DNA from: an uncultured Bacilli bacterium
GTDB taxonomy: Bacteria > Bacillota_I > Bacilli_A > RF39 > UBA660
Length of the DNA: 33,953 bases
Direction of reading: 5' to 3'
NCBI GenBank assembly: GCA_944358405.1
Contig: CALVQX010000005.1
Span: 1 to 33,953, forward strand
Shown here: piece after piece, positions 10,538 through 12,558 of the stretch
Numbering within the stretch: the first letter of the stretch is position 1
Layout of the letters: every line of letters starts with the position of its first letter
Notes under the pieces: model-generated
Database searches by the model: none
Told to the model about the DNA's origin: nothing
What the model saw: the letters and a program-made list of their open reading frames with translations, nothing else
Program-made: the position numbers and the translations under genes

Positions 10538-10559
10538 TTCTGAATAATTTTATTTAGAA
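10538..10559 (+). terminator. AT-rich hairpin after ftsW
   Basis: TTCTGAATAA and TTATTTAGAA form an inverted repeat (one G-T pair) directly after the ftsW stop. No T run follows, so it may stabilise the 3' end rather than terminate. Confidence 0.3.
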
Positions 10560-10581
10560 TACGAAAAAAAGATGGTATACT
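10553..10581 (+). promoter_or_regulatory. Promoter for the HD/RSH/kinase fusion gene
   Basis: TTTAGA (10553-10558), 17-base spacer, and TATACT (10576-10581) with an upstream TGg that makes an extended -10. Confidence 0.6.
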
Positions 10582-10602
10582 AAGTCTGAAGGAGGATTTC
10601 GT

Positions 10603-12558
10603 ATGGTAAAAAAGGAATTAAAAGAGTATATAGAACAAGTAATTTTTCCAGAATATCAAAAAAATGATAAAGCTCATAATATAGAACATATCGCTTATGT
10701 CCTAAAAAGATGTCAAGAACTAAGTTTTGATATGAGCTTAGATCAAAATATGTTGTATACTATTGCTGCTTATCATGATATTGGACATCATGTAGATGCT
10801 AAAAATCATGAAAAAATTTCTGCTCAAATTATGAGAGAAGATCAAAAATTAAGTGAGTTTTTTTCTCAGGAAGAATTAGATATTATGAAAGAAGCGATCG
10901 AAGATCATAGGGCATCTTCGAAGAGAAAACCTAGAAACATTTATGGAAAAGTTCTTTCCTCTGCAGATCGTTCTACCAGTGTGGAACAAATTATAGCAAG
11001 AGCTTATTTTGTCAATCAAAAGTATAGCTTTTCTGAAACAGAAGAAGAGCAATTAGAAAAAATATATGAACATATTAATCATAAGTATGGAAAAAATGGC
11101 TATGCAAAGTCTTATGTAAAAGATAGAAAATATGAAGATTTTTTACAGGAAATAAGAATATTACTACAAAATAAGGAAGAATTTATGGCATATTCCAAAA
11201 AAGTTATTTGCCAAGAACAAAAAGAACTTGCTAAGGAATTTGCGATAATGGCTCACCAAGGACAAGTTCGCAAGAACGAACCTGAAAAGCCAATGGTGAT
11301 TCATCCAATTAGTGTTGCTAGAATATTAGAAGAATATGGTTATGATGACCATGTTATCGCAGCGGGATATTTACATGATGTAGTAGAAGATACAAATTAT
11401 ACGCTAGAAGATATAGAAAAAGAATTTGGTTTAGATATTGCCAATTTAGTAAAAACTGCATCTGAACCAGATAAAAGTCTTTCTTGGGAAGAGAGAAAAA
11501 AGCATACTATTGAGATAACGAGGAAATTACCCCTAAGAAATAAAGTGGTAATTTGTGCTGATAAAATTAATAACATAGAAGATTTAGCCAATACTTTTGA
11601 AAGAACTGGTATCCGTGATTTTTCCAGATTTAAAAGAGGAGAAGAACAACAAAAATGGTACTATACTCAGATCTATCAGAGCTTAATTGAAAATCAAGAG
11701 GAAACACTACCAATTTTTCAACGTTTCAAACAATCTTTGGAGAAAACTTTTTATAAAGAAAATACCTCTGATTTTTTAAAAGATGTTGTTTTTCAAAAAG
11801 AGACAAAATATTATCAAAAGTTGAGACAACTCCATGCTAAAAAACAAGAATTAGAACATTTAAAATCCTTATGTAAATTAGAAAAACCTTTTGTCATTGA
11901 ATTCTGTGGAACTCCTAGGACAGGAAAAACTACTACGATATCTAATTTATATGATTTCTTTAAAAAAGGTGGATTTAAAACAAAATTTTTAGAAGAATAT
12001 ACTACTTCAGAATACTATCAGAAGATAGAAAAACCTAAGTTAGAAGGATGTAGTCCTTACGAATTACAGATGCATATTATGAAAAGTGTAGCCGGTCAAT
12101 TACAGGCAGCAGTATCTTCTGGAAATGAAATTATATTGGTAGATCGTTCGTTAAATGATCGAGCGATTTGGAACTATCGTCGATATAAAAAAGAAGACAT
12201 GACAAAAGAACAATATGAAAAAGCAACAAAGTTTTTTTTACAACTATCGAAAGAATGGATCGATATGTTGGTCATTGGCTATACGGATCCATTGACATCT
12301 TTAAAAAGAGATTATCAAAATAGTTTAGCATTAGAACCAAGAAGGTTTTTAAATTTGGAAAATATAAATGAATATAATGAAGCATTAGATGCTTCCCTAC
12401 CACTTTTTGATCAAAGTGTAGAAAAGATAGTAAAAATAGATACTACAGACGAATCTCCAAGAGAAGTAGCATTAGAAGTAGCGGAGCAAATTATTCCGGA
12501 AATGAGAAAAAAATATGTTTTAAGTTTAAATCGAACATATAATCCCCCAAATAGATAA
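10603..12558 (+). CDS. Three-domain protein: HD hydrolase + RelA/SpoT-type HD hydrolase + P-loop kinase-like
   Basis: ATG 10603 follows AAGGAGG. Domain 1 (residues ~1-195) is an HD phosphohydrolase: H25 and H29, the H58-D59 pair in AAYHDIGHH, and a later Asp in SSADRS. Domain 2 (~205-375) resembles the ppGpp hydrolase domain of RelA/SpoT: AHQGQVRKN, VIHPISVARIL, LHDVVEDT (HD at 258-259), EFGLDIANLVK and CADKINNIEDL. No (p)ppGpp synthetase domain follows. Domain 3 (~430-650) has a Walker A motif GTPRTGKTT (436-444) and ILVDRSLNDRAIW, as in nucleoside/nucleotide kinase-like P-loop ATPases. There is no membrane segment. The combination suggests an enzyme that hydrolyses and phosphorylates nucleotides or alarmones. 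Each domain call is fairly firm; the joint role is inference. It is transcribed alone, with a promoter before it and a strong hairpin after it. Confidence 0.85.
   Translation: MVKKELKEYIEQVIFPEYQKNDKAHNIEHIAYVLKRCQELSFDMSLDQNMLYTIAAYHDIGHHVDAKNHEKISAQIMREDQKLSEFFSQEELDIMKEAIEDHRASSKRKPRNIYGKVLSSADRSTSVEQIIARAYFVNQKYSFSETEEEQLEKIYEHINHKYGKNGYAKSYVKDRKYEDFLQEIRILLQNKEEFMAYSKKVICQEQKELAKEFAIMAHQGQVRKNEPEKPMVIHPISVARILEEYGYDDHVIAAGYLHDVVEDTNYTLEDIEKEFGLDIANLVKTASEPDKSLSWEERKKHTIEITRKLPLRNKVVICADKINNIEDLANTFERTGIRDFSRFKRGEEQQKWYYTQIYQSLIENQEETLPIFQRFKQSLEKTFYKENTSDFLKDVVFQKETKYYQKLRQLHAKKQELEHLKSLCKLEKPFVIEFCGTPRTGKTTTISNLYDFFKKGGFKTKFLEEYTTSEYYQKIEKPKLEGCSPYELQMHIMKSVAGQLQAAVSSGNEIILVDRSLNDRAIWNYRRYKKEDMTKEQYEKATKFFLQLSKEWIDMLVIGYTDPLTSLKRDYQNSLALEPRRFLNLENINEYNEALDASLPLFDQSVEKIVKIDTTDESPREVALEVAEQIIPEMRKKYVLSLNRTYNPPNR

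Follow-up and report, generated by a model that had tools for sequence, protein, structure and literature searches.

A small alarmone hydrolase domain joined to a deoxynucleoside-kinase-like domain in an uncultured Bacilli bacterium

Small alarmone hydrolases (SAHs) have so far been described as small single-domain proteins. Lmo0812 of Listeria monocytogenes was grouped in MixSpo/RelH with RelH of Corynebacterium glutamicum, a (pp)pGpp hydrolase (PMC10434055). A gene encoding such a domain within a larger chain was found in a 33,953-nucleotide stretch of DNA (the window) from an uncultured Bacilli bacterium, at positions 10603..12558 of the forward strand. It started with ATG, and its product of 651 aa comprised an N-terminal HD domain, an SAH domain and a P-loop kinase domain resembling deoxynucleoside kinases (dNKs). 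This length and the three domains do not fit a small single-domain protein, so the product is said here to contain an SAH domain rather than to be an SAH. A first-pass annotation, made from the sequence, had described two HD hydrolases, one of the RelA/SpoT homologue (RSH) type, fused to a kinase-like C-terminus. Every motif quoted in it was present in the open reading frame (ORF), namely H58-D59, LHDVVEDT, CADKINNIEDL, GTPRTGKTT and ILVDRSLNDRAIW. It also knew of no described system with this architecture, and neither the architecture nor the SAH-kinase combination turned up in the open-access literature searched. The protein seems to be a new, undescribed combination of known parts.

Pfam searches assigned HD (PF01966) to residues 27-123 (E 2e-15, 57.5 bits against a cut-off of 22), HD_4 (PF13328) to residues 210-331 (E 4.6e-19, 69.1 bits against 27.2) and AAA_28 to residues 434-532 (E 2.5e-6, 28.2 bits against 27). 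The RelA_SpoT alarmone synthetase domain had no Pfam match in the protein, as the first-pass annotation had stated. The AlphaFold model of the whole chain reached a mean pLDDT of 89.5 and a pTM of 0.75; values for the kinase domain alone were 92.5 and 0.89. All three parts folded confidently and none was without its fold. Pfam, motifs and folds agreed that both HD parts are hydrolase domains and that one of them belongs to the RSH/SAH type, and structure and profile matches narrowed the kinase-like part to a dNK/thymidylate-kinase fold.

The SAH domain occupied residues 208-385 (11224..11757, forward strand), based on PF13328 and the match to Lmo0812, with R223-K224, H234, H258-D259, E262-D263, D320 and N324. 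Its nearest solved relative was Lmo0812 itself (4yf1), with a phmmer E value of 1.4e-33 and a Foldseek TM of 0.91 on the target, and other small alarmone hydrolases were also matched by the middle part in Foldseek. H234, H258, D259, E262, D320 and N324 were invariant among 45 homologs and D263 was kept in 43 of the 44 informative ones. This part most likely hydrolyses alarmones, because Lmo0812 falls into the same group as the (pp)pGpp-cleaving RelH. NADPH and (p)ppApp are further possible substrates.

The kinase domain comprised residues 424-647 (11872..12543, forward strand), with Walker A at 436-443, E465, D514-R515-S516 and the LID arginines R569 and R580. It followed a helical linker of residues 386-423 (11758..11871, forward strand), defined by DSSP of the AlphaFold model. 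The top PDB match of the kinase model was the Giardia deoxyadenosine kinase 8puu (E 1.3e-9, TM 0.65 on the query); further structural matches were AbmG, dCK, Drosophila dNK and thymidylate kinases. Foldseek with the whole-chain model also returned dNKs and thymidylate kinases (TMPKs) for the last part, and the named matches in a viral structure library were mostly deoxynucleoside and dTMP kinases. The kinase profile matched 8puu with an E value of 5.4e-9. In this profile alignment, E465 was paired with the glutamate of the dNK EPV motif and DRS 514-516 with the dNK D/ERS motif. Matches of the profile to SRP/FtsY were discarded, having only the P loop in common. The Pfam family dNK (PF01712) was not matched by the protein, and one of the 20 members of set A2 matched it at E 0.002. 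The genome also carries a separate thymidylate kinase (Tmk), so the kinase domain of the fusion is not the Tmk of the host. A role as a stand-in for a canonical dNK was considered and set aside: the lack of a dNK in the host says little, since dNK was rare throughout the family, being present in 14 of 145 genomes.

The three-part order recurred in further genomes at 53-55% identity, and more genomes encoded a shorter protein, about 445 aa long, made up of SAH and kinase. Across 45 distinct homologs, the catalytic residues of all three parts were conserved at 93-100%. The combination is therefore real and conserved, neither chance nor an accident of annotation. A clear relative of the kinase was carried by about 60 of 386 genomes sampled from the same family; the weak end of the match list consisted of other P-loop proteins. 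Most kinase relatives examined in this sample had an SAH in the same frame. Strong matches in class and phylum samples were confined to this family, and all fusions found came from uncultured Bacilli-type metagenome-assembled genomes (MAGs), none from a virus, phage or plasmid. An origin from phage or plasmid was rejected, as no record covered 80% of the protein, only single hydrolase parts matched, and viral contigs yielded no kinase relative. Plasmid SAH genes of Gloeothece, Roseomonas, Pontibacillus, Ilyobacter, Listeria and Caballeronia had no annotated kinase partner. The AAA ATPase adjoining the Gloeothece gene lay on the opposite strand, and the Ilyobacter plasmid encoded a 374-aa protein with a C-terminal SAH (L136:3413-4537).

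The first HD domain (residues 1-196; 10603..11190, forward strand) was assigned to the YedJ/YpgQ type from PF01966 and motif conservation, with H29, H58-D59, D122, H25 and an EDHR motif at 100-103. Its nearest solved relatives were YedJ (3gw7) and 2pq7, and H29, H58, D59 and D122 were kept in all 17 HD-bearing homologs. The NCBIfam phosphohydrolase family PRK10119 was not reached, with 37.5 bits against the curated 286. An HD domain was present in 17 of the 45 distinct SAH-kinase proteins. Its presence required seven changes on the SAH-kinase tree, at least five of them forced by supported branches. In G653 it was a frameshifted relic preceding an intact SAH-kinase frame. Only its last 41 residues were left in G827, joined to another ORF (L175:313-837), which was unrelated, had no Pfam match and ended in these residues directly 5' of the SAH-kinase gene. 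The HD part is an accessory that was repeatedly lost, and the conserved core is the SAH-kinase pair. The single-chain, three-part module of the first-pass annotation was present at this locus, but the unit conserved among relatives is the pair, and the first HD comes and goes. In G058 (L161) and G039 (L162), several free-standing copies of this first HD formed tandem runs, among which a 492-aa double-HD protein (L023:2132-3613) was found. In Erysipelotrichaceae MAGs, a YedJ-like HD was fused to a TrmD-type tRNA m1G methyltransferase (L054:7317-8633 and L055:7242-8636); ORFs of about the same length occurred at L056, L066, L086, L091 and L098.

The junction between HD and SAH in most three-part genes carried the motif (A/T)TGGAGGTAAA....ATTATGGA, which corresponds to an in-frame Shine-Dalgarno sequence and an ATG. 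The glutamate codon of this motif was GAG in 12 of 12 genes, whose proteins were 64-97% identical. GAG occurred in at most three of the 12 genes at any of the 24 remaining positions with an invariant glutamate (nominal Fisher p 1e-11, uncorrected for relatedness). Where the internal ATG was lost, in L030 and L034, GGAGG was lost too. Neither was present in the window gene, L032 and L033. Because the GAG codon at the junction Shine-Dalgarno sequence was kept, a second product consisting of SAH and kinase is proposed, and many three-part relatives probably make both the long protein and the short SAH-kinase alone. The window gene has lost the internal site and probably makes the long protein only.

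SAH and kinase also occurred as adjacent separate genes in four genomes, G036, G683, G765 and G688. A WYL-domain regulator preceded them in the first three and was missing in G688; the SAH gene of G683 was broken in two. Free-standing and CYTH-fused members of the kinase family were flanked by a NUDIX regulator of NrtR type on one side and a HAD phosphatase on the other, with CYTH and HAD matches slightly below the Pfam cut-offs. One of them, in G710 (L191:6592-9216), was an 874-aa chain of HD, CYTH and kinase in such a NrtR/HAD gene run. On our reading of the motifs, its HD domain appears to be of another type. What recurs in the kinase family is the linkage of a kinase to enzymes that remove phosphate.

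We propose, with a probability of roughly 45%, that the SAH-kinase core is a nucleotide-remodelling enzyme with two activities, removal of the 3'-pyrophosphate of alarmones and phosphorylation of a nucleoside or nucleotide. The SAH domain would hold one Mn2+ by H234, H258-D259 and D320 and cleave (pp)pGpp, possibly also (p)ppApp, to GTP, GDP, GMP or the adenine forms and pyrophosphate. With ATP as donor, the kinase would phosphorylate a nucleoside or nucleotide and so bring back into use either what alarmone breakdown yields or a related (deoxy)nucleoside pool. In chains that have it, the N-terminal HD would be a second, YpgQ-type pyrophosphohydrolase that trims nucleoside triphosphates. The hydrolase half of this proposal is likely; that the kinase re-phosphorylates the SAH product, like the substrates, the metal and the coupling between domains, is what we infer. 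An alarmone substrate should exist, since three genes of the host genome encode an alarmone synthetase domain. The adjacent separate SAH and kinase genes and the phosphatase partners of related kinases also speak for the proposal.

Several observations weigh against this proposal. The substrate class of the kinase is not fixed by its family matches, as Pfam dNK gave none and the AAA_28 cut-off was barely exceeded. The SAH-kinase genes lacked conserved neighbours: at the 33 loci compared, every other gene family was limited to five loci or fewer. Carriers and non-carriers showed no visible difference in synthetase gene number when compared by eye; this number was dropped as a mark of carriers, with nearly every genome of the family having a synthetase gene. 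SAH enzymes are promiscuous, and some hydrolyse NADPH or prefer (p)ppApp, according to passages of PMC9765508 and PMC7644958. In G036, the WYL regulator, SAH and kinase genes came after an NAD-salvage run on one strand with short gaps (L160:471-8911), which comprised isochorismatase/nicotinamidase-type, NAPRTase, NUDIX, NadE, PRPP-type, PnuC, NadR and NrtR genes. This arrangement would suit a different substrate.

The G036 locus, the NrtR-type regulators adjoining several free-standing kinases and the NADPH hydrolysis possible for SAH enzymes (passages of PMC9765508) would fit an NAD(P) enzyme. Its SAH would be mainly an NADP(H) 2'-phosphatase, an activity reported for MESH1, and the substrate of its kinase would be a nicotinamide nucleoside or related compound. 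However, in G683 and G765 no NAD genes lay beside the same run of WYL, SAH and kinase genes, and no NAD gene recurred beside the fused genes. The kinase profile did not match the kinase half of NadR, and the best 50 structural matches were of dNK/TMPK type, not nicotinamide riboside kinase. One group also saw no NADPH hydrolysis by Mesh1, as stated in a passage of PMC7644958. We regard this explanation as quite improbable. The conserved catalytic residues bear on another alternative, in which the kinase domain would sense nucleotides by binding them and thereby turn the SAH on or off, while forming little product. Hydrolysis in long RSH enzymes is regulated through other domains, and a helical linker joins the kinase to the SAH here. 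Yet Walker A, E465, DRS and the LID arginines were kept in 93-100% of the 45 homologs, which exceeds the needs of ATP binding alone, and the kinase was also found without an SAH. Such a switch is unlikely, though it deserves somewhat more credit than the NAD(P) enzyme.

A nucleotide-sensing stress or defence function had been suggested in the first-pass annotation and found no support. In its defence form, the SAH would reverse 3'-pyrophosphorylation of nucleotides or tRNA ends by a toxic synthetase, as antitoxin or repair enzyme, and the kinase would heal or recharge the product. Some SAH enzymes neutralise toxic synthetases (passages of PMC9765508), WYL regulators stood ahead of the split form, and HAD phosphatases resembling the PNKP phosphatase adjoined related kinases. 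Against these points, the protein matched no PADLOC defence model, no kinase relatives were found in viral contigs, no neighbouring gene was conserved, and the fold was that of a nucleoside kinase, not a polynucleotide kinase. Of the explanations weighed here, we give this one the least credence.

If the proposed remodelling enzyme exists, alarmone breakdown and nucleotide salvage would be combined in one polypeptide of small-genome gut bacteria, and the end of the stringent response would be tied directly to nucleotide supply. Conservation of the internal start down to synonymous codons predicts that one gene yields two proteins. It is conceivable, though doubtful, that such proteins form a new class of bifunctional enzymes for alarmone recycling, in which a single chain degrades 3'-pyrophosphorylated nucleotides and also acts as a nucleoside or nucleotide kinase, with many relatives making two products, one with the extra HD and one lacking it, via an internal in-frame ribosome-binding site.

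The window corresponds to a single contig (C5) of a draft genome of 1.32 Mb, which is 90% complete. The gene followed a member of the FtsW/RodA/SpoVE family and preceded a DUF3419/methyltransferase-like gene. A Shine-Dalgarno sequence, ggagg, was read directly at 10591..10595 (forward strand), 7 bases 5' of the ATG. A weak candidate promoter-like site (TTTAGA, 17 nt, TG preceding TATACT) lay at 10553..10581 on the same strand, in a region where such sites occurred at chance level. The search for a terminator downstream of the gene gave no convincing candidate.

Compared with described systems, the SAH domain shares about 40% identity, the fold and all catalytic motifs with Lmo0812 of the MixSpo/RelH group, which also includes C. 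glutamicum RelH, but is part of a chain that also contains a kinase and an additional HD. The first HD shares the H...HD...D metal motif and the preceding H25 with the YpgQ/YedJ phosphohydrolases (YpgQ: PMC8177086), of which YedJ is the nearest solved; here, in contrast, it is the N-terminal portion of a larger chain, stays under the PRK10119 cut-off and is dispensable in relatives. With dNKs and TMPKs (8puu, dCK, Drosophila dNK, bacterial TMPK), the kinase has the fold, P loop, base-like glutamate, DRS motif and LID arginines in common. It differs in its identity of only about 20%, the missing Pfam dNK match, the fusion to phosphohydrolases and a host with its own Tmk. The HD-CYTH-kinase protein of G710 likewise places two phosphohydrolase-type parts ahead of a kinase of the same family, with CYTH in the middle instead of SAH, an HD of apparently another type and a gene located in a NrtR/HAD run.
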